Assembly (NCBI GenBank): GCA_937899415.1
Contig: CALBPI010000013.1
Location: 1-43,409 of the forward strand
Reading direction: 5' to 3'
Length of the DNA stretch: 43,409 nucleotides
DNA from: an uncultured Gammaproteobacteria bacterium
Lineage (GTDB): Bacteria > Pseudomonadota > Gammaproteobacteria > Steroidobacterales > Woeseiaceae
The notes below the pieces were generated by a model that was not told the DNA's origin, did no database searches, and worked only from the letters and a program-made list of their open reading frames with translations. Positions 2,554-31,531 of the stretch are shown here, one piece after another. Position numbers and translations under genes: made by a program. The first letter of the stretch is position 1; each line of letters begins with the position of its first letter.

Positions 2554-4245
2554 CTAACGGGGTTTAATGAGTAGTCGCCAGCCCACGGCTGTACCGACAG
2601 CCAAAGCCCCGGCCAGCGGCCAGAAGAGCCCGTTGCCGCCGTTGACGAGACCCACGGGCGAAAACAGGAGGTAGAGCAGCACGATCGTCGCCAGCAGCAA
2701 CAAGGCAACCGGCCGCGCCAGCGGCCATTCCGTCATATCCACGGCGCTCTTGGACGTGTACGCCCAGGCCCCCTCACGCGGCTGGAGGTATCCGATGCCA
2801 AGCATGATGCCGACCTCGATGATGAACAGCACCGCGTAGAGATGCAGGAAGTGCAGCGTGAACACCTCGGGCAGACCAAAGCGCGCAATGCCGTAGGCGA
2901 CCACGTGGAAGCAGATCACGATCTTGGCGCCCAGCGCGGGCACGCGCCGCGTAAACAAGCCGACCATGACGATCGCCACCACGGGAATGTTGTAGAAGCC
3001 CGTGAAAATGCGAATGATCTGCCAGAGCCCCTCGGGCGCGTACTGCAGCAGTGGCGCGACCGTGAAGGAGAACAGTGCGATCACGATACTCGCGATCTTT
3101 GCCACCTTGACCATCTGCGCGTCGGACACGGGTTCTTTCTTCATCGGCGCGTAGACGTCGAGACAGAACAGCGTTGCGGCGCTATTGAGCAGTGAGTTAA
3201 ACGAGCTGAATACCGCACCGAGCAATACAGCCAGAAAGAGACCAGACAGGTAAAACGGCAGCACATCACGAATGAGCTGCGGGTACGCGAGGTCGATCGT
3301 CTCGAGCCCCGGACCGTAGAGATGGAACGCGAGCACGCCCGGGATCATCATCATGAACGGCACCATGACCTTGAAGAAGCCCGACAGCAGCACGCCCTTC
3401 TGCCCTTCGGCCAGCGACTGCGCGCCCAGCGTGCGCTGGATGACGTACTGGTTGGTGCACCAATAGAAGAGGTTGGCGAATAACATCCCCGTGAAGATGG
3501 TCGCGAACGGTGTCGGGTCCGTGGACGACCCGATGGCATTGAGCTTCTGCGTTTCGCTGGTTGTCAGTGTGGTCAGGCCCGCCGAAAACGACCCGTCGCC
3601 GAGTTTGATCACACCGAGTACAGGCACCAGCAAACCGATGAACAGCAGGCCGATACCATTGAGCGTGTCCGACACGGCGACCGCCTTGAGGCCACCGAAG
3701 ATTGCGTAGACTGCGCCAATGCTGCCGATTGTGACGATGGTGATGAGCAATCCCTGGCTGTAGCTGACGCCGAGCAGCGTCGGCACATCGAACAAGCGCA
3801 GTACCGCGATAGACCCGGCGTAGAGCACGGACGGAATCGTGACAAGCCCGTAGCCGACCATGAACAGCACCACCGACATGCGCCGCACGCCGTCGTCGAA
3901 GCGGTTGCTCAGAAACTCGGGCAGCGTGGTGAAGGCGCCCGCGAGGTAGCGTGGCAGGAACACGAGCGCCATGCAGATCGTTGCGAACGCGGCCGTGACT
4001 TCCCAGGCCATGCTGCTCATGTTGTAGCCGTAGGCGGAACCGTTGAGGCCGATGAGCTGCTCGGCCGAGAGATTCGTCAGCAGCATCGAGCCCGCAATGA
4101 AGATGCCCGTGAGCCCGCGCCCGGCCAGGAAGTAGCCGTCGCGCGTATCGACTTCGCCACGCGTCTTGAGATACGAGATGACGGCCACTGCCGCCATGAA
4201 CGCGATGCAGGTCGTCGCCGTCAGTAACCAGTTATCTGCAGACAC
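2554..4245 (-). CDS. SSS-family sodium/solute symporter, YidK-like (563 aa)
   Basis: An inner-membrane solute:sodium symporter of the LeuT-fold SGLT/YidK group, about 14 helices. Recognisable stretches are YFLAGRGL, NLSAEQLIGLNGSAYGYNMS, LPRYLAGAFTTLPEFL, the IFGGLKAVAVSDTLNGIGLL helix, FYWCTNQYVIQRTL and SSFNSLLNSAATL, the last covering the region that supplies the sodium-site serines in vSGLT. It resembles E. coli YidK along its whole length. The start is GTG with GGGGGG upstream. It begins 32 nt after the metalloprotease stop codon and precedes the TonB receptor, so outer- and inner-membrane uptake of the same solute is likely. The exact sugar is unknown. Confidence 0.92.
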   Translation of the reverse strand: MSADNWLLTATTCIAFMAAVAVISYLKTRGEVDTRDGYFLAGRGLTGIFIAGSMLLTNLSAEQLIGLNGSAYGYNMSSMAWEVTAAFATICMALVFLPRYLAGAFTTLPEFLSNRFDDGVRRMSVVLFMVGYGLVTIPSVLYAGSIAVLRLFDVPTLLGVSYSQGLLITIVTIGSIGAVYAIFGGLKAVAVSDTLNGIGLLFIGLLVPVLGVIKLGDGSFSAGLTTLTTSETQKLNAIGSSTDPTPFATIFTGMLFANLFYWCTNQYVIQRTLGAQSLAEGQKGVLLSGFFKVMVPFMMMIPGVLAFHLYGPGLETIDLAYPQLIRDVLPFYLSGLFLAVLLGAVFSSFNSLLNSAATLFCLDVYAPMKKEPVSDAQMVKVAKIASIVIALFSFTVAPLLQYAPEGLWQIIRIFTGFYNIPVVAIVMVGLFTRRVPALGAKIVICFHVVAYGIARFGLPEVFTLHFLHLYAVLFIIEVGIMLGIGYLQPREGAWAYTSKSAVDMTEWPLARPVALLLLATIVLLYLLFSPVGLVNGGNGLFWPLAGALAVGTAVGWRLLIKPR

Positions 4246-20696: not shown

Positions 20697-21470
20697 CTAC
20701 AGAAAGTCCCGGGAGGTCGAAAAGTGCTGGCTGGCGCTGACGAGCTCAGAATAGGTGCGCGCCGGGGTAGTTTTGGGCCCGAAACGCGGGTCATCGCTGA
20801 TCGAGGGATTGTCTTCACGGTGGAAACTCGTGATTAGCCCCCATCGCGAGTCGGGTGAGGTATTGGCCGCGGAGGCATGAAGCAGGCTGGCGTGAAAGAA
20901 CACCGCATCACCGGGCGCAAGCTCGCAGTGCACGATACCGTCACGCTCGGCCAGCATGGCAACGCGGTCGCTATCGGCGCCCACTTGCTCGCCAACAGCA
21001 CCGTGGCGCAGTCGCCCGTACCGATGCGAGCCGGGAATGACTTGCAGACAGCCATTGACGCGCGTCGCTGCGTCGAGTGCGATGTAACAGCTTCCCATCG
21101 CGTCCGTGAGAAACCCGTCGTCATACCAGTAGCCATAGTCCTGGTGCCATTCCCAGGCGCCACCCTCATAGGCGGACTTTTGCATCAGCTTGGCGTGAAA
21201 GAATTTCGCGTCGCCGCCCAGGCAGTCGGACATCGTGTTGACCACGCGATCGAGGCTCGATAGCTGACCAAAGACATCGTCGCCCGGCGTGTACCAAAGC
21301 GTGACACGACTCTTTCGGCCATCGGCATCTCGTTTTTCATACGCATGCGTATCAGCGCCGCTCTGCTCCGCGGACAGGCGCAGCGCACCAGCCAGCGCGG
21401 GCTCGATGAGCTCACGCACGATGACGTAACCCTCAATACGAAACGCATCTCGTGTTGCAGTGCTGGCCAT
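20697..21470 (-). CDS. PhyH-type Fe(II)/2-oxoglutarate dioxygenase (257 aa)
   Basis: A phytanoyl-CoA dioxygenase-family protein. The facial triad is visible: His109-x-Asp111 in WHQDYG and distal His198 in FFHASLLHAS, with the 2-oxoglutarate-binding Arg209 exactly 11 residues later, the same spacing as human PhyH (His264/Arg275). GCLQVIPGSHRYG is also typical. The enzyme is probably active; its substrate is unknown. It starts 9 nt after the symporter stop codon, so it belongs to the galactoside uptake transcription unit, where a hydroxylase is unexpected. Confidence 0.92.
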   Translation of the reverse strand: MASTATRDAFRIEGYVIVRELIEPALAGALRLSAEQSGADTHAYEKRDADGRKSRVTLWYTPGDDVFGQLSSLDRVVNTMSDCLGGDAKFFHAKLMQKSAYEGGAWEWHQDYGYWYDDGFLTDAMGSCYIALDAATRVNGCLQVIPGSHRYGRLRHGAVGEQVGADSDRVAMLAERDGIVHCELAPGDAVFFHASLLHASAANTSPDSRWGLITSFHREDNPSISDDPRFGPKTTPARTYSELVSASQHFSTSRDFL

Positions 21471-21479
21471 ATCAGCGCC

Positions 21480-23081
21480 CTACCACTCCGCTATGCCGAT
21501 CGGCGACAGCCAGGCCGTCACGGCCACAAGCCCCGCAACGGCCACCGCATAGGCAAACCACCGGTAGCGCCAAGGCGTCAGATTCACCGCAGGCTTTTCC
21601 GGCCATTGGAAGGGCTCGGCCTGAGGCTGGATGCGCCCGAACGCCAGCATGATCAGACACGACACCACAAACAGGATCGCTGCAATGTGGAGAAAGTGAA
21701 GACCGAAGTCATCGAAGAGCTGCGTGTAGCCGTAGCTTACGAGATACACCACGAGTGCCACCTTGGCACCCATCGCCGGTACGCGCTTCGTCGCGAAACC
21801 CATAAACACGATGGTGAATATCGGAATGCTGAAGAAACCCGCGACCTTCTGGAAGTACTCATAGAAGCCGTCGCTCGCGAACGCAATGAAGGGCGCGATG
21901 ACCATCGCCGCGATCGCCAGCACGACCTGCAGACCCTTACCCATGCCAATGAGCTTTTCCTCCGCAATCGGTGCACCGCGGTCTTCCGCAATGGGCCGCA
22001 CGACATTCAGTATCGCGATCGTACTCGTCGAGTTGAGCCCCGAATTGAATGTGGTTAGCGACGCACCGAACATGACGGCCGCGATGACACCGATGAGGTA
22101 AGGCGGCATTACCTCCGCCACCAGCTTCGGGTAGGCCTCGGCCGAATTCATGAGCTCAGGCAGCGCGATGAGCGCAATCACACCGGGGAACACCGTGATA
22201 GCTGGTGCAATGAATTTAAGCCACGCGCCCAACATCATGCCCTTCTGACCGGCGGCGAGGTTCTTCGACCCCAGGCTGCGCTGAAGGATGTACTGCTCGG
22301 CACCCCAGTAGTTGAGGTTCACGAGCAGCATGCCCGTGAACAGGGTGTGCCAGGGCACAGGGTGCTCACTGTTACCCCACGCTGCCAGATGATCCGGACG
22401 CTCCGTGACCAGGCGTGACCAGCCCGCCCAGAAGTCACCATCACCGATGTAAAGGAGCCCGAAGTACGGTACGAGCAAGCCGCCTGCCACAAGCCCAACG
22501 CCGTTGAGCGCGTCCGATGCGGCAACGGCCTTGAGCCCTCCAAACACCGCGTAAGCACTGCCGACAATGCCAATAGCCCAGACAAGAATCCAGGTCGCCG
22601 CCCACTCTGATACTCCGAGCAATCCATCGATATCAAACATGCCGTTGAAGACGACGGCACCCGTATAGAGCACAGGTGGCATGAGGTTCACGATATAGGA
22701 GATGAGCAGCAACACGGCCACCCAGGTGCGCAGCGTGCCGCCGTAGCGCATGCCGAGAAACTCAGGCGTTGTGGTCACCCCAAGCCTCAGGTAGAGCGGC
22801 AGCAGAAACTCGGCGACGAGCACCATGGCGAAGATCGACGCGAAGCCGAACATCATGATGCTCATGTTGTAGAGATACGCGGATTCCGTTTCGCCAACGA
22901 TGGCGATCGCCGAGATGTTGGAGAGGAACAGAGAGCCGCCCACGAGGAACCAACCCAGGTGCCGCCCACCGAGGAAATAGCCTTCGGTCGAACGCAGGTC
23001 CTCTCCGCGCGTCAGCCACCATGAGGCGACAGCGATGGCCAGCGTGATGGTGAAGAATGTCGTCAGTGCGAGTGCGTTCAT
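21480..23081 (-). CDS. SSS-family sodium/sugar symporter, SGLT-like (533 aa)
   Basis: Sodium:solute symporter with about 14 helices: YFLGGRHLGWFLVGGSLFLS, NISAIAIVGETESAYLYNMS, VFGGLKAVAASDALNGVGLV, NYWGAEQYILQRSLGSKNLA, and ASLTTFNSGLNSTSTI over the sodium-site region. It is a diverged paralogue of the symporter at 2554-4245. It lies between the large TonB receptor (82 nt upstream, with a terminator in the gap) and PhyH (9 nt downstream). In this locus it most likely carries galactose or small alpha-galactosides into the cytoplasm. Confidence 0.93.
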   Translation of the reverse strand: MNALALTTFFTITLAIAVASWWLTRGEDLRSTEGYFLGGRHLGWFLVGGSLFLSNISAIAIVGETESAYLYNMSIMMFGFASIFAMVLVAEFLLPLYLRLGVTTTPEFLGMRYGGTLRTWVAVLLLISYIVNLMPPVLYTGAVVFNGMFDIDGLLGVSEWAATWILVWAIGIVGSAYAVFGGLKAVAASDALNGVGLVAGGLLVPYFGLLYIGDGDFWAGWSRLVTERPDHLAAWGNSEHPVPWHTLFTGMLLVNLNYWGAEQYILQRSLGSKNLAAGQKGMMLGAWLKFIAPAITVFPGVIALIALPELMNSAEAYPKLVAEVMPPYLIGVIAAVMFGASLTTFNSGLNSTSTIAILNVVRPIAEDRGAPIAEEKLIGMGKGLQVVLAIAAMVIAPFIAFASDGFYEYFQKVAGFFSIPIFTIVFMGFATKRVPAMGAKVALVVYLVSYGYTQLFDDFGLHFLHIAAILFVVSCLIMLAFGRIQPQAEPFQWPEKPAVNLTPWRYRWFAYAVAVAGLVAVTAWLSPIGIAEW

Positions 23082-23163: not shown

Positions 23164-25986
23164 CTAGAACGTACCGCGGACGCCAATCTGCCAGCGGGCT
23201 CCGTTATCGATGAAGGACTCCAGGAAGTTGTCACGTTCGGAGAAGATGTAGAACTGCTCGTCCGTGATGTTGATGCCTTCGAGGAAAATCGACAGGGGCA
23301 GTGATGTCACCTCGTAGAGGTCGTAAGACACGGACAGGTCCACTTGCGTGTAGTCGTCGAAGAACTCGGCGAAGCCACCCTCCCCCTCGGTCGAGGCCAG
23401 GTAAGCGTCCCGGTAGTTCATCGACAACTGCGCCTGCCACCCGTAGTTCTCGTAGATCAGCGCGATGTTGTAGGACAAGTCGGAGATGTTCTCGAGCGGC
23501 GCATCCTGGCCATTCGCGGTCGCATCACTATCGGAAAGCGTGAGGTTCGCGGAAACGCCGAAGCCGTTGTCGAGCAGATATTGCGACGCCAGTTCCAACC
23601 CGTACACTTCAGCGGAGTCGCCATTCTGCGGCTCCGTGATCAGGAAGTTGATCGTCTGCGGACCCAACGGGTTGTTATTGAGGTCGACCGAGTCAGGAAT
23701 GGTGATGTCGCGACGGCTGTTCCCATTATTGATGAAGTCCGAGATGTTCTTGTAGAACACCGCACCCGTCAGCGACAAACCGTTATCGCCGTACCACTCA
23801 AGGGATGCGTCGAAGTTGTCGGAACGCACCGCCTCGAGACTTGGATTGCCTGATGCTGCTTCCTCCTGCCCCGCGTTGATCTGCGTCACGGCGAAAAAGG
23901 TCGACAGGTCGTTGAACGTTGGTCGAGCCAACGAACGCGAGAACCCTGCCCGAAGAATGAGGTTGTCGTCGAGATCGAACGCGATGTTGAACGACGGCAG
24001 GACATCAAGGTAGGAGTTGGAGAACGACACGCTGGTAGGTGAACCGAGCGTAATGGCGTTGTTTCCCGACACCGAGTCGATGACGATCTGTTGCAGCGGC
24101 GCCTGCGCACCCGTCGACTCGACGTCGGTGTAAGCCAGGCGCAAGCCTGCATTCGCGGTAAACGGCACGCCACCGAAGTCACCTGTGAAGTTGGCCTGCA
24201 CGTAGGCGCTCAGGATCGACTCATCAATGTCGCTGGAGCTCGTCGCGTTGAACGTCGGCGATAGGTAGCTCGGCGCACCCGTGAGCTGCGCGAGGTTATC
24301 AAACGCGAGTTCAACGACGGCGATGTTCGGCGTCAGGAAGTTGCGCGGGATGTTGGCGCCCGTGCTGCCCAGGAAGTCTTCGCCCTGGCCGTTGAACGGG
24401 ATCAGCAGTCGCGCTAGATCCGAGGCGCCCAGGAAATCCGAGAACAACAGGGAGCGGTCACAGAAAAAGGCGTTGGAACCAGCGCCCAGCGAGGGCAGCG
24501 CCACACTCGTGTCGCCACAGAAGCGACCGCCATCTTCGTTATCGAAGACCTTGTTTTCCTTGCCGCGCGAGATGAAGTCAGCACCGAACTGCAGGCTTGA
24601 GGTCTCGCTCATCTCAAGCTGGAAATCCGCCCGCAGGGTCAGGATTTCGTCGCTGATCTCATTGGACGAGTTCCGCGAGAAATGCAGGCGTGCGCCTTCT
24701 GGCGGCAGCTGGTCGATCCCGACCGTCGTCGTGTCATTCACCGTTGGCAGCGCCGTGAAGTCGATGTTGGGCACCTGACCGTTGAACGTCTGCGTGAAAT
24801 TGGCGCCCGGGTAGCTGACCACGTAGAAGCTGCCGCTGCCCGCGTTGGAGCCCACGTTGTCGCGGATGCCGTCCGCCTTCGAATACGAAGCGTCGAGCTG
24901 GTAGGTCAGGCGATCACTGAGTTGGCTGTCGAAATTGACACCGAACTGGAAGGTATCGGTGTCTGCTTCAGCGCGTCGCGCAACAAAATCGAAGATATTG
25001 CTGAACGGATTGCCAGCAGTGAAGTTACTGGTCTGCGACAGCACATCGTTCGCCGCATCAACCGTGACATTGCTGGCGAGACCCGGATTCGGGAAGTACG
25101 AGTAGGACGAAGACAGACTCGGGCTCTCGAAACGAGAGTACAGCGCGTCGAAGGTCACCACACTCAGGTCCGACGGTGCCCATTGCAATACCAGAGAACC
25201 ACCAATGCGTTCCCGGTCCTCATTGTTGATATTGGCATTGAACGAATTCAGTCGGTCGTTGACGCCGTCGCCGTTGTAGTCGGTGCTCGCATCGATCGCA
25301 ATTGACTCCGCCGTGTCCGTGCGGATTTCGCGCTCCTGATAGCTCAGCGAAGCGAGAATACCGATCGTGTCGTCGGCGAACGTGTTGCTGATGACGCCCG
25401 ACGCCTGTGTGCTCGTGGACTCGTTCAGCGTCTCGTACTGACCGGCAATTGAGAACGCACTCTGGAATCCCATTCTGTCGAATGGCCGTGCGGTCTGGAT
25501 GTTGACCAGGCCGCCAATCGACCCGTCGGTCTGCGACGCCGTTGGCGATTTGAAGATCTGTGCGGCGCTGACGAGCTCGGACGCAATCACGTCGTAGGAA
25601 AACTCGCGACCCGCGTTTTCGGTTGCAAGTCGTCGGCCGTTGATCGTGAGCTGGTTGAACTCCTGGCCGAGGCCACGAACGGTGACGAAGCGGCCCTCGC
25701 CACCGCGCTGACGCGTGATCGCAACGCCGGTAATGCGTTGCAGCGATTCCGCGACGTTGGTGTCCGGGAACTTGCCCAGCTCTTCGGCGGAGACGGCGTC
25801 GATGATCTGGTCTGCGCCGCGCTTTTGTTCCTGCCCGCGTTCGATCGCGGCCCGGATGCCAGTGACGGTGATTTCGTCAATGGGCTCTGATGAATCCTGC
25901 GCCTGAACGTTGCCCCCTGCCGCCAATACGACACCGGCCGCGCAGGCCCCCATGATGGCCTTAAACGGATAGCTCACTGCATGCAC
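23164..25986 (-). CDS. TonB-dependent receptor, TIGR01782 (Xanthomonas/Caulobacter) type (940 aa)
   Basis: A large outer-membrane receptor. TonB box DEITVTG, plug with AIERGQEQKRGADQIIDAVS, FPDTNVAESLQRITGVAITR and TVRGLGQEFNQLTINGRRLA, and a long barrel ending QIGVRGTF with terminal Phe. This subclass typically takes up oligosaccharides in Xanthomonas and Caulobacter relatives. The start is uncertain: GTG at 25986 opens the longest frame, but GTG at 25977 has GGGGGG at good spacing and still gives a signal peptide (cleavage near NVQAQ). The flanking alpha-galactosidase, galT and galK genes and the shared upstream motif suggest alpha-galactosides as substrate. Confidence 0.94.
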   Translation of the reverse strand: MHAVSYPFKAIMGACAAGVVLAAGGNVQAQDSSEPIDEITVTGIRAAIERGQEQKRGADQIIDAVSAEELGKFPDTNVAESLQRITGVAITRQRGGEGRFVTVRGLGQEFNQLTINGRRLATENAGREFSYDVIASELVSAAQIFKSPTASQTDGSIGGLVNIQTARPFDRMGFQSAFSIAGQYETLNESTSTQASGVISNTFADDTIGILASLSYQEREIRTDTAESIAIDASTDYNGDGVNDRLNSFNANINNEDRERIGGSLVLQWAPSDLSVVTFDALYSRFESPSLSSSYSYFPNPGLASNVTVDAANDVLSQTSNFTAGNPFSNIFDFVARRAEADTDTFQFGVNFDSQLSDRLTYQLDASYSKADGIRDNVGSNAGSGSFYVVSYPGANFTQTFNGQVPNIDFTALPTVNDTTTVGIDQLPPEGARLHFSRNSSNEISDEILTLRADFQLEMSETSSLQFGADFISRGKENKVFDNEDGGRFCGDTSVALPSLGAGSNAFFCDRSLLFSDFLGASDLARLLIPFNGQGEDFLGSTGANIPRNFLTPNIAVVELAFDNLAQLTGAPSYLSPTFNATSSSDIDESILSAYVQANFTGDFGGVPFTANAGLRLAYTDVESTGAQAPLQQIVIDSVSGNNAITLGSPTSVSFSNSYLDVLPSFNIAFDLDDNLILRAGFSRSLARPTFNDLSTFFAVTQINAGQEEAASGNPSLEAVRSDNFDASLEWYGDNGLSLTGAVFYKNISDFINNGNSRRDITIPDSVDLNNNPLGPQTINFLITEPQNGDSAEVYGLELASQYLLDNGFGVSANLTLSDSDATANGQDAPLENISDLSYNIALIYENYGWQAQLSMNYRDAYLASTEGEGGFAEFFDDYTQVDLSVSYDLYEVTSLPLSIFLEGINITDEQFYIFSERDNFLESFIDNGARWQIGVRGTF

Positions 25987-26034: not shown

Positions 26035-26092
26035 TGAACACCGATACGGTCGGAGAATTCGCGCACCAAGAAAATGGGTGCTACGGCAGTAC

Positions 26093-26108
26093 ATGTGTTT
26101 TTTGGTAA
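26093..26108 (-). promoter_or_regulatory. Candidate AraC operator upstream of the TonB receptor
   Basis: On the minus strand TTACCAAAAAACACAT is identical over 16 bases to the plus-strand motif at 26993-27008. It points toward the receptor gene and lies about 107-116 bp upstream of its start. Confidence 0.65.
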
Positions 26109-26130
26109 GTCGCCGTGCCGGCACCCGAAT

Positions 26131-26955
26131 TCAGGCCGACACATCCCGGGCCGCTGTGCGAACACGGTATTCCTTGGGCGACCAGCCGATCGTTTTGCTG
26201 AATTGTTTCGAGAAGTGGTACTCGTCGCAAAACCCTAATTCTTCAGCAATTTCCCGAAGAGAACGCTCATTGTCGTGCAACAGGTTGCAGGCCTGCTCCA
26301 TGACTGCACGGCGTGCATAACGGCCCGGAGGCTGCCCGCTCAGCCGCTTGAAGCGCTTTCGAAAGGACTCGTAGCTGATCCCCATTTGGCGTGTTGCGCG
26401 TTTTGGGTCACCGGTCTCGACGATGGCCTGCTGCGCCTTCTCAAGCCAGACGACGTCGGCCTCCGCGTGTTCGCGGGAGACGTGTTCAATATCGGCGAGA
26501 AGCTGCTGCAGGCGAATCACTTCCTGCACCATTTGGTGAGGATCGTCTCCGTGATCGTCGCCAACCGCCTCACGAATTCGTGTCTGCCAGTAGTCATGCG
26601 GCTCGAGGTGACGCACAGGTTTCGCAGAGTCGATGGCCTCGCGCTCGCGCCACAAGTCGAAGATCGGCCCCTCGAAGACCACGAAGGTCTCATTCCACGT
26701 TTTGCCTTTGGCTGGGCCGTACCAGTGCTCCACACCAGGGCACACAAGGATCGAGTCGCCAGGCACGATGTCGTACTCGCGTCCAGCCTCATCCCAGTAG
26801 GTGCCTGTGCCCTCGGTGACGAAAACCAGTGTAAAGTGCGGCAGCACACGCCGATGCGTGAGTACACCAACGCCGTTGCTGACATCGCAGGCAATTCGCA
26901 GGCCGCCTAACGGCGACACGACCAGGCTCTTGCGGAAAAATCGGTTTTCAAGCAT
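26131..26955 (-). CDS. AraC-family transcriptional regulator (274 aa)
   Basis: N-terminal cupin-like sensor domain (LPHFTLVFVTEGTGTYWDEA, DSILVCPGVEHWYGP) and a C-terminal double helix-turn-helix (YESFRKRFKRLSGQPPGRYA, SLREIAEELGFCDEYHFSKQ, GWSPKEYR). The ATG at 26955 has GGGGGCGAG upstream; the frame upstream of it has none. It sits between the receptor and the divergent alpha-galactosidase, and the same 16-bp motif lies beyond each end of the gene, so it probably activates both sides in response to a galactose-related sugar. Confidence 0.93.
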   Translation of the reverse strand: MLENRFFRKSLVVSPLGGLRIACDVSNGVGVLTHRRVLPHFTLVFVTEGTGTYWDEAGREYDIVPGDSILVCPGVEHWYGPAKGKTWNETFVVFEGPIFDLWREREAIDSAKPVRHLEPHDYWQTRIREAVGDDHGDDPHQMVQEVIRLQQLLADIEHVSREHAEADVVWLEKAQQAIVETGDPKRATRQMGISYESFRKRFKRLSGQPPGRYARRAVMEQACNLLHDNERSLREIAEELGFCDEYHFSKQFSKTIGWSPKEYRVRTAARDVSA

Positions 26956-26992
26956 CTCGCCCCCCGCGACTGCCTGAATGACGCTTTCGACG

Positions 26993-27008
26993 TTACCAAA
27001 AAACACAT
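26993..27008 (+). promoter_or_regulatory. Candidate AraC operator upstream of the alpha-galactosidase
   Basis: TTACCAAAAAACACAT, identical to the minus-strand copy at 26093-26108. A second half-site-like GGACCAAA at 27012 repeats TTACCAAA with a 19-bp period, and a -35-like TTCACA follows near 27027. It also lies 38 bp upstream of the regulator's own start, so autoregulation is possible. Confidence 0.68.
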
Positions 27009-27110
27009 TTCGGACCAAACGGGCCCTTCACAACAGCCCTGAATGCGCGAATGCTAGTGACCACGTGCGAGTTCGGGGGGAACACGCACCACACGAGACT
27101 GTTGCCAAAG

Positions 27111-29315
27111 ATGTCAGCAAACGAGTCAGGCATCCGCCTGCACAACCCGGTACCCGCGGTCACCGACGCCCACTCGGGCGCCCGCTATTGCCGGCTCTCG
27201 ACATCGGCCGTTGAGGTCATCATCGATATCTCGGCGGGGGCCAGACCGGGCATCATTTACTGGGGCCCAACCTTGCCGCATACGAGCCCCGAGGAGCTCG
27301 CGCTGCTCTCAACGCGGCAATGGGCGTTCGGTGGCGCCAACGTTGACGTTTCCGACTCATTGTCCAACGAATTCGGCGCCGGGCTCGCAGGTCCCTCCGG
27401 ATTCGTGGCCCATCGCAACCGCGAAGACTGGGCATCGATCCTGACGCTCACAGATGCGGCGCAGGATGCTGGGAACCGGGCCCTCCTCGTGTGCCAGGAC
27501 AGCAACACGGGGCTGAGCGCCACCTACACGCTTGAGATCGACCTGGACTCCCACGTTTTGAGCGCGCGGACCACGATCGAGAATCTGGGCAACGACGCAC
27601 TTACCATCGACTGGTGCGCCGCCCTGTGCCTGCCGCTCGATCGCCGCCTGCAGTCGCTGCTGACATTTACGGGCCGTTGGGCCGGCGAGTTCCAGACGCA
27701 GGAGGTCCCCGCATTTCGAGGCAGCGTAGTCCGCGAGAACAAGAGCGGCCGCACCAGCCATGACAACTTCCCGGCACTGGTCGCCAAAGCGCGCTACACG
27801 AGCGAGAAGCACGGGCCGGCCGCAGGCTTCCACCTGGGCTGGAGCGGCAATCATCGCGTTCGCGCCGACCGGCATTCGGACGGGCGCGCATTTGTGCAAA
27901 TGGGCGAGTTGTTCTATCCCGGCGAGATGGTGTTGGGACAAGGTGAACGATACGAGACACCCGAAATGCTTGCTGCCTGGTCGGACAACGGTCTCACCAG
28001 GCTCTCGCAACGCTTTCACGAGCACTTCAACAAACACGTGGGCGGCGGTCGCAAGGACCGAAAGCCGCGACCTGTGCACTACAACACCTGGGAAGCGATC
28101 TACTTCGACCACTCGGAGGAACGAGTCCTCGACCTCGTTGATCGTGCCGCAGATGTGGGCGCCGAACGGTTTGTTCTTGACGACGGCTGGTTTGGCACAC
28201 GACGACATGAACGCAGTGGGCTGGGTGACTGGTGGGTCGCCAAAGACGTCTATCCGGATGGCCTGCACCGAATCACAGATCGCATCCGCGAGCGCGGCAT
28301 GGAGTTCGGTATCTGGTTCGAGCCGGAAATGGTGAATCCCGACTCTGATCTATTCCGGGCCCACCCGGACTGGATCCTCGCGGCAGACGGTGTCGAGCAA
28401 GTGCCGTTCCGCGACCAGTACACGCTCGACCTGACCAAGCTCGAGGTCTTCAACTATCTGTTCGAGACCATTTCCGCGGTCATTGCGGAATACGACGTTG
28501 CCTATGTCAAGTGGGACATGAATCGCGATATCCAGCACCCTGGCAGTGCCGGGCGCGGTGTCATTCACCGCCAGACCCAGGCCGTCTACGACCTCATGGC
28601 CAAACTGCGTAGCCACTTCCCCGAGCTCGAAATCGAGAGCTGCTCTTCGGGCGGCGGCCGCGCGGACTTCGGTGTGCTGCGTCACGCCGACCGGCTCTGG
28701 CTGTCCGACAATAATGACGCTGGTGACCGGCAGGCCATCCAGCGAGGCGCCAGCCACTTCTTTCCACTGGCCATCAACGGCAGCCATGTCGGCCCGCGCC
28801 TGTGCCACATCACGCGCCGAACCCACAGCATGGCGTACCGAGCAGCCACGGCGATGTTTGGCCACATGGGTCTCGAACTGGACCTGGCCGACGAACCGGA
28901 AGCAGACGTCGAGACACTCAAGCGCGCGATCGCGTTGCACAAACAGCATCGCAAGCTCATCCATTCGGGGCGCTACTTCAGGCTCGACTCATCGGATTAC
29001 CTCAATGCGTTCGGCGTGGTGTCCGACGATGGTCGCGAAGCCCTTTTCTCGTGCGCCAAGACCGACGGCCACAGTACAACGCTTCCAGGTCGCTTTCGCT
29101 TCGCAGGTCTCGACGACGCCACGCGCTACCGAATGCGGCTGATCTGGCCGACGGAGAATGTCTCCATTACATCACCGTCCATCGTGGAACGCGCCGACCT
29201 GCTCGGCGACGGCATCATCGTTTCGGGCGAGGCCATCGGTCAGCACGGCGTGCAGTTGCCATTGATGTACTCCGACACCTGTCTCATCTACCACTTCGTC
29301 GCCGTCGACGAGTAG
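27111..29315 (+). CDS. Alpha-galactosidase, GH36, cytoplasmic (734 aa)
   Basis: Hydrolyses terminal alpha-galactosyl bonds (melibiose, raffinose type). The N-terminal beta-sandwich leads to the catalytic barrel: FVLDDGWFGTRR, FGIWFEPEMVNPDSDL, nucleophile Asp469 in VKWDMNR, CSSGGGRADFG, and acid/base Asp533 in WLSDNNDAGDR. All are intact. The Met at 27111 is preferred because the fold begins just after it; an ATG at 27051 would add 20 unlikely residues. Neither has a strong Shine-Dalgarno. There is no signal peptide, so cleavage is intracellular. First gene of galA-galT-galK. Confidence 0.94.
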   Translation: MSANESGIRLHNPVPAVTDAHSGARYCRLSTSAVEVIIDISAGARPGIIYWGPTLPHTSPEELALLSTRQWAFGGANVDVSDSLSNEFGAGLAGPSGFVAHRNREDWASILTLTDAAQDAGNRALLVCQDSNTGLSATYTLEIDLDSHVLSARTTIENLGNDALTIDWCAALCLPLDRRLQSLLTFTGRWAGEFQTQEVPAFRGSVVRENKSGRTSHDNFPALVAKARYTSEKHGPAAGFHLGWSGNHRVRADRHSDGRAFVQMGELFYPGEMVLGQGERYETPEMLAAWSDNGLTRLSQRFHEHFNKHVGGGRKDRKPRPVHYNTWEAIYFDHSEERVLDLVDRAADVGAERFVLDDGWFGTRRHERSGLGDWWVAKDVYPDGLHRITDRIRERGMEFGIWFEPEMVNPDSDLFRAHPDWILAADGVEQVPFRDQYTLDLTKLEVFNYLFETISAVIAEYDVAYVKWDMNRDIQHPGSAGRGVIHRQTQAVYDLMAKLRSHFPELEIESCSSGGGRADFGVLRHADRLWLSDNNDAGDRQAIQRGASHFFPLAINGSHVGPRLCHITRRTHSMAYRAATAMFGHMGLELDLADEPEADVETLKRAIALHKQHRKLIHSGRYFRLDSSDYLNAFGVVSDDGREALFSCAKTDGHSTTLPGRFRFAGLDDATRYRMRLIWPTENVSITSPSIVERADLLGDGIIVSGEAIGQHGVQLPLMYSDTCLIYHFVAVDE

Positions 29316-29339: not shown

Positions 29340-30449
29340 ATGCCCAGAACCGCACACAGCCCGGCTCACGAGGCACGCGAGCTAACACGGCGCGTTGCGG
29401 ATCAGTCCGTTTATTGCCGCACGATTCAGCGCGCAGACGGCCGCGACGTGCATCTCTATGGCTACGCCCCCCACACCCTGCCCGTGCAAGCTCAGCCGGA
29501 GCTCGACCTGCCGCAAGGCGGCGAGCTGCGTTGGCACCCGTTGCGCCGCGAGTGGAACATTTATGCAGCACACCGGCAATCTCGGACGTTCAAGCCATCG
29601 GCCGCAGATAATCCCCTGGCACCTTCGTTGCCCGGCAAGCCAGTGACCGAGATTCCTGTGGCCGACTTCGAGCTGGCCGTCTTCGATAACAAGTTCACAA
29701 GCCTGCACCCGCAAGCGACCGTGCTCTCTTCGGTCGCAGGCACTGACAAGCGTCCCGCGCGTGGGCAATGTGAAGTCATCGTGTATGGCCCCGAGTCCGA
29801 GGGCAACCTGCACACCATTGGGCAAGCGCAGCGTCGGTTGTTGCTCGCAGCCTGGGCAGATCGCTACGAGGCGCTGTTTCGCCGGGACTGCGACTTCGTG
29901 CTCCCGTTCGAGAACCGCGGCGACGATGTCGGTGTCACGCTGCACCACCCGCACGGGCAGATCTACGGCTTTGCGGAAACGCCGGTGATGCCGGGCCGCG
30001 CCGTCGAGGCGTTTGCTTCGGGCTACAGTCTTGAACGCGAAATTGAGAACCTGCCCGAGGAACTCATCGTCGAGACGCATGGCGACGTGCTGGCCTGGTG
30101 CCCGCCCTACGCTCGCTATCCTTACGAAGTCTGGGTTGCGCCTCGCACTCAGCGTGACGGCGTTTGGTCGTTATCCGAGCGCGAGTCTGATCAATTCGCC
30201 GAGCTCGTCGGTGCTATCACCGATCGCTACGACCGCTTCTTTGGTCAGCCCACGCCTTACATGTTCGCCCTGCACTGCGCGCCTGCATCCTGCGACGGCC
30301 CCTACCACATGACGGCGCAGTTCTACCCGATTCTGCGCGCGCCCGGACGGCTTAAGTACCTGGCCTCTATTGAGCAACACACGGGCGTATTCACGGTGGA
30401 TGTGCTGCCGGAGCAGGCCGCAACAGCGTTGCGTACACTAGAGGCGTGA
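29340..30449 (+). CDS. galT: Galactose-1-phosphate uridylyltransferase (369 aa)
   Basis: Transfers UMP between UDP-glucose and galactose-1-phosphate in the Leloir pathway. The active-site HPHGQ (203-207, nucleophile His205), ELRWHPLRREWNIYAAHR, and FALHCAPASCDGPYHMTAQF are present. The structural-zinc CxxC near the N-terminus of E. coli GalT (CFLC/CPLC) reads NPLA here (91-94), so that zinc site is lost although the first His of HPH remains. The gene starts 24 nt after galA and overlaps galK by 4 nt. Confidence 0.93.
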   Translation: MPRTAHSPAHEARELTRRVADQSVYCRTIQRADGRDVHLYGYAPHTLPVQAQPELDLPQGGELRWHPLRREWNIYAAHRQSRTFKPSAADNPLAPSLPGKPVTEIPVADFELAVFDNKFTSLHPQATVLSSVAGTDKRPARGQCEVIVYGPESEGNLHTIGQAQRRLLLAAWADRYEALFRRDCDFVLPFENRGDDVGVTLHHPHGQIYGFAETPVMPGRAVEAFASGYSLEREIENLPEELIVETHGDVLAWCPPYARYPYEVWVAPRTQRDGVWSLSERESDQFAELVGAITDRYDRFFGQPTPYMFALHCAPASCDGPYHMTAQFYPILRAPGRLKYLASIEQHTGVFTVDVLPEQAATALRTLEA

Positions 30450-31531
30450 ACCCCGACCTACTCAGCACGTTTGTCGCCGCGTTCGACACCACACCGACGC
30501 TTGAGGGCGCCGCCCCCGGCCGCGTCAATCTGATCGGCGAACACCTCGACTACAACGGCGGCTCCGTGTTGCCCGCCACGCTGCCGATGACACTGCGCGT
30601 GGCCATGCGCCCGCGCGAGGACAGCACCGTTCGTGTCGTCGCGACGGGCTACCCCGACACACCGCCGCGAGACCTCAGTGATGTGATGCGCGGTGACTGG
30701 TCGGATCATGCACTCGCCGCGGTACAGATGGGCAACGAAGTCGGGTTGCTGCAGGGTGGCGCCGACATCGCCATTCGCTCCGACATTCCCAGCGGCGCGG
30801 GGCTGAGCTCTTCTGCCGCCCTGCTCGTTGCACTGCTCAAGACCATGCGATCCGCCGATGAGCACTGCCTACTCGGTGATATCGACATCGCGCTACTCGC
30901 CCAACGCGTGGAGCGCGAATACATCGGCGTGCCCTGCGGGATCATGGACCAGTTCACAGTGGCCGTCGGTGAACCTGGGCACGCAATCCTGCTCGACACA
31001 AAACGACTCACGCACCGACTCATCGCACTGCCGACCTCGCACACCTTTGCGATCATCCACAGTGGCATCACGCGGGAGCTCACTGACGGTCGTTACGCCC
31101 GACGCGCCGATGAATGCCAACGTGCCGAGCAGATCTTCGACACCAAGGCGCTGTGCACGCTCGACCTCAAGACGATCAAAGACATGCCGCGTGTCGACCT
31201 TGCGCTACGGCGGCGTGCCCGCCAGTGCGTCACAGAACAACAACGCGTGATGGCCGCGGCTGCTGCCATGCGTCAGGGCAATGTGGTCGCACTCGGTGAG
31301 CTCATGATCGAAAGCCACCGCTCGATGTGCAAAGACTTTGAGATGTCCTTGCCCGCCATCGACTACCTCGTCGCCGATGCTGTTGAACAAGGCGCCGTCG
31401 GCTCGCGACTCACGGGTGGCGGGTTTGGCGGCTGCATCGTGTCGCTGGTTGAGAAGGGTCAACTCGAGGTGTGGTCGCAACGATTGCTGGCGCGGCATCC
31501 CGAGGCGTATTTCGTCGCAACGACGGGTTGA
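30446..31531 (+). CDS. galK: Galactokinase (361 aa)
   Basis: GHMP kinase that phosphorylates galactose at C1. Motifs in order: APGRVNLIGEHLDYNGG (substrate-binding signature), PSGAGLSSSAALLVAL (ATP loop), GVPCGIMDQFTVAVG (catalytic Asp) and LTGGGFGGCIVSLV. Slightly shorter than E. coli GalK. The start is GTG overlapping the galT TGA (GTGA), indicating coupled translation. Last gene of the galA-galT-galK operon; galE and galM are not in the window. Confidence 0.95.
   Translation: MNPDLLSTFVAAFDTTPTLEGAAPGRVNLIGEHLDYNGGSVLPATLPMTLRVAMRPREDSTVRVVATGYPDTPPRDLSDVMRGDWSDHALAAVQMGNEVGLLQGGADIAIRSDIPSGAGLSSSAALLVALLKTMRSADEHCLLGDIDIALLAQRVEREYIGVPCGIMDQFTVAVGEPGHAILLDTKRLTHRLIALPTSHTFAIIHSGITRELTDGRYARRADECQRAEQIFDTKALCTLDLKTIKDMPRVDLALRRRARQCVTEQQRVMAAAAAMRQGNVVALGELMIESHRSMCKDFEMSLPAIDYLVADAVEQGAVGSRLTGGGFGGCIVSLVEKGQLEVWSQRLLARHPEAYFVATTG

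Follow-up and report, generated by a model that had tools for sequence, protein, structure and literature searches.

MelR, which activates melibiose use in enterobacteria and is of the AraC type, is one of several described systems to which the locus analysed here can be compared, the likeness being an AraC-type regulator beside an alpha-galactosidase gene. It differs from MelR in that a TonB receptor and an SSS symporter accompany the regulator, which scores 19.5 bits with the NCBIfam MelR equivalog, the cut-off being 253. A second known type is the CUT locus, defined by the presence together of a receptor, an inner-membrane transporter, a degrading enzyme and a regulator, and this gene content is found here as well, with a TonB receptor in the first role. 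CUT loci have been reported from Xanthomonas, with relatives in aquatic bacteria (PMC1790865); compared with the Xanthomonas loci, as outlined in the accessible part of that report, the present one differs in its gal genes and in its AraC-type regulator, for which a tandem operator is defined.

The galactose/galactoside locus of Porphyrobacter sp. HL-46, an erythrobacter relative, is described with an SSS permease, RafA and BgaL (PMC5507952). It shares Leloir genes, an SSS symporter and the cytoplasmic galactosidase RafA with the locus described here, and the available portion of its description names no AraC-type regulator, no such operator and no glycerol gene. For the operator itself, the nearest models are the sites of XylS (TGCA-N6-GGNTA-N6-TGCA-N6-GGNTA) and MtlR (AGTGC-N5-AGTAT-N7-AGTGC-N5-AGGAT), the latter lying just upstream of the -35 element (PMC5481539, PMC4514859). 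As far as these are set out in the sections of the two papers at hand, they resemble our sites in that two half-sites are repeated directly with a gap of 6-7 bp, each half-site contains a pair of boxes spaced by about 10 bp, and one of the two has an A-tract. They differ in that here the boxes are CCAA and CAT, the period is 19-20 bp and the regulator reaches the cut-off of none of the NCBIfam AraC-type models. The letters of the motif core found no match in the literature searched.

By "the window" we mean the whole stretch of DNA that was analysed, 43,409 nucleotides of contig CALBPI010000013.1 from an uncultured gammaproteobacterium of the Woeseiaceae. We favour a reading, at a probability of roughly 0.9, in which the AraC/XylS-family regulator has two tandem operators, one on either side of its gene, and each of two copies of a 16-mer in the window makes up the upstream half-site of one of them (Table 1). 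A repeat noticed by eye would thus become a regulator-operator pair with a consensus. The predicted regulon in the window, galA-galT-galK plus the genes for the TonB receptor, SSS symporter and PhyH-type oxygenase, is well supported.

Table 1. Features of the cluster, in positions of the window
Feature	Position	Strand	Remarks
Putative galA operator	26996..27027	+	half-site 1 CCAAAAAACACAT 26996-27008, 6-bp spacer, half-site 2 CCAAACGGGCCCT 27015-27027
Putative TonB-operon operator	26074..26105	-	half-site 1 CCAAAAAACACAT 26105-26093, 6-bp spacer, degenerate half-site 2 CCGTAGCACCCAT 26086-26074
TTCACA abutting half-site 2 of the galA operator	27027..27032	+	tentative -35-like element
AraC/XylS-family regulator, 274 aa	26131..26955	-	ATG 26955; cupin/AraC_binding sensor and C-terminal double HTH; proposed to bind both operators
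galA, GH36 alpha-galactosidase	27111..29315	+	PF02065 E 9.4e-123; ATG 27111 preferred, ATG 27051 possible
galT, galactose-1-phosphate uridylyltransferase	29340..30449	+	PF01087, PF02744; under the NCBIfam galT cut-offs
galK, galactokinase	30446..31531	+	TIGR00131 above cut-off
TonB-dependent receptor	23164..25986	-	TIGR01782 above cut-off; start GTG 25986 or 25977
SSS-family sodium:solute symporter	21480..23081	-	NF007790 above cut-off; 82 bp after the receptor gene
PhyH-type oxygenase	20697..21470	-	after the symporter gene

The 16-mer and the tandem operators

The first-pass annotation had pointed to an identical 16-bp motif on both sides of the AraC gene, each copy facing its gene from about 100-115 bp ahead, and this description is exact. 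The 16-mer TTACCAAAAAACACAT occurs without mismatch at 26993-27008 on the plus strand and at 26093-26108 on the minus strand, with both copies oriented toward their respective genes. The distance is 102 bp to the galA ATG at 27111, and 106 or 115 bp to the receptor start, according to whether GTG 25986 or GTG 25977 is used; a six-G run ends 8 bases upstream of the latter. On the galA side, the copy is at the same time 38-53 bp ahead of the start of the AraC gene.

A pair of identical sequences could also be due to chance, or to a recent local duplication devoid of function, and the occurrence of just two copies in the genome would suit such an origin. We give it practically no weight. Dinucleotide shuffles of the window yielded a mean of 0.09 matches to the 16-mer at up to 3 mismatches, and 1 of 100 shuffles reached two, against the two perfect copies observed, so that the annotation was right to consider a chance identity of 16 bases very unlikely. 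It had also named random occurrence throughout the genome as a result that would count against an operator. In the 3,938,189 bases of the assembly (102 contigs) there are two exact copies, no match with 1-2 mismatches and six with 3. Since a control search with the pattern reversed, allowing up to 3 mismatches, yields 8 matches over the whole genome, these six represent background; five lie within mechanically listed ORFs of at least 120 aa, and the sixth has its end 13 bp ahead of a start codon. As their number is within that of the control, we claim none of them as an additional member of the regulon. These genome-wide counts, together with the motif being conserved at both of these places in other genomes (see below), led us to discard chance and simple duplication.

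About 20 kb away, the window contains a gene for a further SSS symporter, assigned to the same NCBIfam family, and beside it a further TonB-receptor gene (2554-4245 and 103-2469). A scan of the window found the 16-mer motif absent near this second pair.

The proposal that the motif is an operator site very probably stands as to its role, yet the 16-mer cannot be equated with the full site. Judged from the aligned letters, it is only the upstream half of a predicted tandem operator, which consists of CCAA-N6-CAT, 6-7 bp and a looser copy, and it extends slightly past half-site 1, beginning at 26993 on the galA side and reaching 26108 on the TonB side. The second half-site of the TonB operator in the window is weak, with CCGT instead of CCAA. 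A consensus scan detected no sigma-70 promoter-like pair near either operator and thus lends no support to the TTCACA of Table 1, while TTCAC is found at the same offset after the site in 5 of 18 aligned sites.

According to the reading that we favour, a regulator dimer would bind ahead of galA-galT-galK and ahead of the TonB receptor-SSS-PhyH operon, the two HTH motifs of each monomer contacting one half-site of the CCAA-N6-CAT type. The cupin domain would sense the substrate or one of its breakdown products, and the ligand-bound regulator would help RNA polymerase to start at both operons. The DNA itself shows where the putative operators lie, which way they face, that they are conserved and that they occur together with the regulator, and from this we infer that the regulator physically binds both sites. 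Activation is most likely, rather than repression, and the cupin domain probably responds to an inducer. As the galA operator is situated just upstream of the regulator gene too, autoregulation through this site is possible.

Conservation and specificity of the sites

Upstream regions were compared from 12 genomes, the window included. From 27 regions 18 were used, after removal of near-duplicates (G043 twice, and loci L014 and L015) and of five symporter regions that lack a site; the galA regions of L014 and L015, near copies of L013, never entered the set. When 21 galA and tonB regions were matched to CCAAAAAACACAT, the forward match was the better one in 17 and the reverse match in none. 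The four ties are the galA regions of L016 and L017 and the tonB regions of L017 and L082, the last of these having 5 mismatches in 13. Ahead of the Hirschia symporter gene there is an exact forward site too, and the other five symporter regions, all from Erythrobacter-type loci in which the symporter gene follows the receptor gene, reach 4-5 mismatches at best. In a Sphingomonadaceae bin the regulator-galA gap (L016:2459-2560) contains two equally good half-site matches in opposite directions.

A pattern made of half-site 1 and the following CC, CCAAA-N5-CA[T/A]-N6,7-CC, is present in forward orientation in all 18 non-redundant regions and in reverse orientation in one; in 300 rounds of shuffling the count averaged 0.05 and reached 2 at most. 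Of the 18 regions, 17 have the longer tandem pattern in forward orientation, and shuffles never produced it, so that the sites have the two direct half-sites of an AraC/XylS operator, half-site 2 being weak at the TonB gene of the window. Because both patterns were derived from the very sites counted, a de novo search by EM was run on 16 regions outside the window with both strands allowed. It recovered the same motif, forward in 16 of 16, and its model ranks the two sites of the window first and second, at 25.7 and 19.4 bits, followed by 11.4 for the next best. The EM run comprised real regions only, and two of the 16, both from Hirschia, had been picked because the motif was seen there. We rely on it in preference to a separate hold-out, which is weaker, its training sites having been chosen by likeness to the motif of the window.

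The half-site period varies between 19 and 20 bp among the 18 aligned regions. By eye, half-site 2 of tonB regions ends in CAT (7 of 9) or TAT (2 of 9), that of galA regions in CCT, ACT or TCT (6 of 8), CAT (1) or AAT (1). The site ends in CCATGG in 7 of the 18 alignment rows.

In the genome of the window the tandem pattern occurs exactly twice, both times at the cluster. G043 has two matches, both in its cluster, and G056 three, two of them in the cluster, while the 57 relatives without a regulator match have 26 in total, spread across 21 genomes. The reversed pattern gives 17 matches over the 60 genomes, one of them in the genome of the window. Thirteen cluster loci, Hirschia counting as two, contain 23 matches, all at promoters of the galA, tonB or symporter type, compared to one match in 13 control loci with weaker-matching AraC proteins (including L021, an uncertain control as a contig end cuts the locus). 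Ten further loci, eight from the genome of the window and two from Altererythrobacter, contain none, and the extended loci of G056 and G043 hold only tandem sites already counted. The shorter, looser pattern does give a few stray matches, for example three extra in L016, two in L041 and one each in L018, L019, L025 and L031.

A genome-wide search in Hirschia with the pattern of the window produced two exact matches, one ahead of the symporter gene and one ahead of galA within the cluster, and a third that precedes by 81 bp a TonB-receptor gene some 9 kb further along. The third site, one of six with 2 mismatches, is credible because of its place, not its score. In G056 the best two of ten genome-wide matches are the two cluster sites. 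In G056 and G043 some 8 kb separate the TonB receptor-SSS-PhyH operon from the regulator gene, and the operon has retained its own operator. The symporter is 78% identical to the products of the same-place genes in these genomes, and the PhyH gene has also kept its place (58-59% identity). The idea that uptake and the galA-galT-galK operon form one regulon gains from this, as the motif stays with the TonB gene even at about 8-9 kb from the regulator gene. Three Erythrobacter-type genomes (G1139, G1140 and G1141) have a divergent half-site 1 that reads TTCAT instead of CACAT; their cluster sites have 3 mismatches, like many others, and the pattern of the window fails to pick out the cluster genome-wide there. 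A degenerate match on contig 2 of Altererythrobacter is not claimed as a site, since the genes around it are unrelated by the ORF list.

These data also bear on whether the motif might be the site of some other, unlinked regulator, with the adjoining AraC-type gene present only incidentally. Linkage by itself is indeed no proof of binding. Nevertheless, we think this very unlikely, as motif and regulator co-occur across two classes despite a change in gene order, the full pattern is rare in genomes lacking the regulator (the 26 matches in 57 genomes), and the second HTH motif is invariant (see below). Tandem direct repeats of two boxes about 10 bp apart are, moreover, what dimeric AraC/XylS regulators use, according to the portions of the XylS and MtlR papers at hand (PMC5481539, PMC4514859). 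The earlier suggestion of a probable AraC operator is strengthened by the same motif standing before the same genes, with orthologous regulators, in another family of the order and in Alphaproteobacteria; paired sites of this kind are thus found next to the same genes in bacteria that are only distantly related. Very probably, the sites serve as operators, and we regard the whole as a new regulator-operator pair of the known AraC/XylS type, the consensus of which predicts the regulon in regulator-bearing genomes.

The regulator and its distribution

The regulator has a cupin/AraC_binding N-terminal domain, as in the sugar-sensing subgroup (PF02311, E 2.3e-12), and the double HTH of the AraC/XylS family (PF12833, E 5.6e-18; PF00165, E 4.1e-12). 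Both parts are also seen in its predicted model (mean pLDDT 81.7, pTM 0.55). Over the whole chain the top structural matches of this model are ToxT and Rns, at low TM-score, and in structure comparison the sensor domain matches the lactose sensor BgaR and AraC.

Of 60 relatives searched, 3 match the regulator at E<=1e-20, namely the genome of the window, G043 and G056, and the same three are recovered at 1e-60 among 396 genomes of the order. The searches of the class (1 of 369) and the phylum (1 of 398) include the genome of the window in their counts. Searches centred on other hosts found it in 2 of 2 genomes in the family of G056, in 3 of 397 in the family of L012 (the genomes of L012 and L019, plus G1182), and in 1 of 105 in the family of L018, a count that includes the genome on which that search was centred. 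A scan of contig sets with six short peptide patterns, covering 84,980 species at one genome each, returned 21 loci. Eight of them (L012-L019, L019 being partial), from Altererythrobacter, Erythrobacter, a Sphingomonadaceae bin and Hirschia, are 41-54% identical and were treated as orthologues; the other 13 have lower identity or match in the C-terminal part only. Overall, the orthologues are 41-58% identical, and galactoside clusters surround them in Erythrobacter, Altererythrobacter, Hirschia and a further family within the order to which the window belongs. A distribution so thin and scattered suggests horizontal spread of these loci. The HTH2 sequence LGFCDEYHFS and the HTH1 sequence YE-x-FRK-x-F are invariant in 10 of 10 orthologues.

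A regulator from a Verrucomicrobia bin (L020), 36% identical, was excluded from the orthologue counts. Between this AraC-type gene and a divergent PhyH gene there are three tandem copies of a related motif (L020:7843-7900), with 3-4 mismatches each and in exact 21-bp steps. The tandem pattern is not matched in this three-fold repeat, which possibly reflects a related recognition code for another substrate.

Candidate substrates

The sugars originally suggested were melibiose and raffinose. That the regulon is as proposed and serves for one of these, or for another plant alpha-galactoside, is a serious possibility, if somewhat short of an even chance. It would agree with the presence of GH36, galT and galK genes in the cluster of the window, where neither glpD nor glpK was found. 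Elsewhere in this genome a single GlpD homologue reaches E 1e-30 or better, with 27% identity. The suggestion holds to this extent, but these sugars are not the sole candidates, because a glpD homologue directly follows galA in all nine relatives with readable DNA at that place (L012, L013, L014, L015, L017, L018, L033, L034 and L082; six lineages by our grouping, with glpD profiled against NCBIfam in three of the nine), and a glpK homologue is in the cluster as well in three (L018, L033 and L034).

Floridoside and isofloridoside are alpha-galactosyl-glycerols that serve as osmolytes in red algae, and floridoside is a major red-algal photosynthate. An alpha-galactosidase would be expected to release galactose and glycerol from either, and the glycerol genes beside galA in the relatives point to a substrate of this kind. 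We tentatively propose a dedicated, thinly scattered regulon for alpha-galactosyl-glycerols, of which the lineage of the window may have moved or lost the glycerol arm. The substrate would enter through the TonB receptor and the sodium symporter and be cleaved by GalA, GalK and GalT would take the galactose and GlpK and GlpD the glycerol, and one AraC-type sensor would switch everything via CCAA-N6-CAT tandem operators; the lineage of the window would have kept the switch, the transport and the galactose arm. A GH36 enzyme has been reported, in the part of the source available, to accept glycerol as acceptor in isofloridoside synthesis (PMC8509150). Titles and the first part of abstracts in the open-access literature revealed no bacterial floridoside pathway or regulon, which is weak evidence. 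Thus we have a candidate bacterial route for floridoside use that is testable, and the regulator could serve as a sensor for the predicted inducer. As the cluster of the window is without glpD, floridoside is proposed at the level of the family and is for this organism a mere possibility.

A Melibiase_2 (GH27-type) alpha-galactosidase gene lies between the receptor and symporter genes in one Erythrobacter locus (L013:12221-13495). By eye, its product has an N-terminal stretch like a signal peptide, and the gene is not in the ORF lists of the near copies L014 and L015. This second alpha-galactosidase weakens an interpretation in terms of floridoside only, and is as expected for larger alpha-galactosides.

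Digalactosyl-glycerol, which forms the head group of DGDG, a galactolipid of plants and algae, seems an unlikely substrate. It would explain the GH42 beta-galactosidase gene that Hirschia has between its symporter and regulator genes, and a GH42 gene on contig C10 of the genome of the window that lies near genes for a symporter and a galT homologue and near a divergent GlpD-like gene; among the ORFs profiled, however, which were part of the total, no beta-galactosidase gene was recognised in the Erythrobacter-type clusters or in those of G056 and G043. The C10 genes form a second galactoside cluster (L038, C10:9000-19000) with an SSS symporter, the galT homologue, the GH42 beta-galactosidase and the divergent GlpD-like gene, in which the tandem operator was not found. 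Another contig of the same genome carries its only glpK homologue at E 1e-30 or better (L037, C55:28927-30396), which is reported with one in-frame TAG, either a break in the gene or an error of the assembly.
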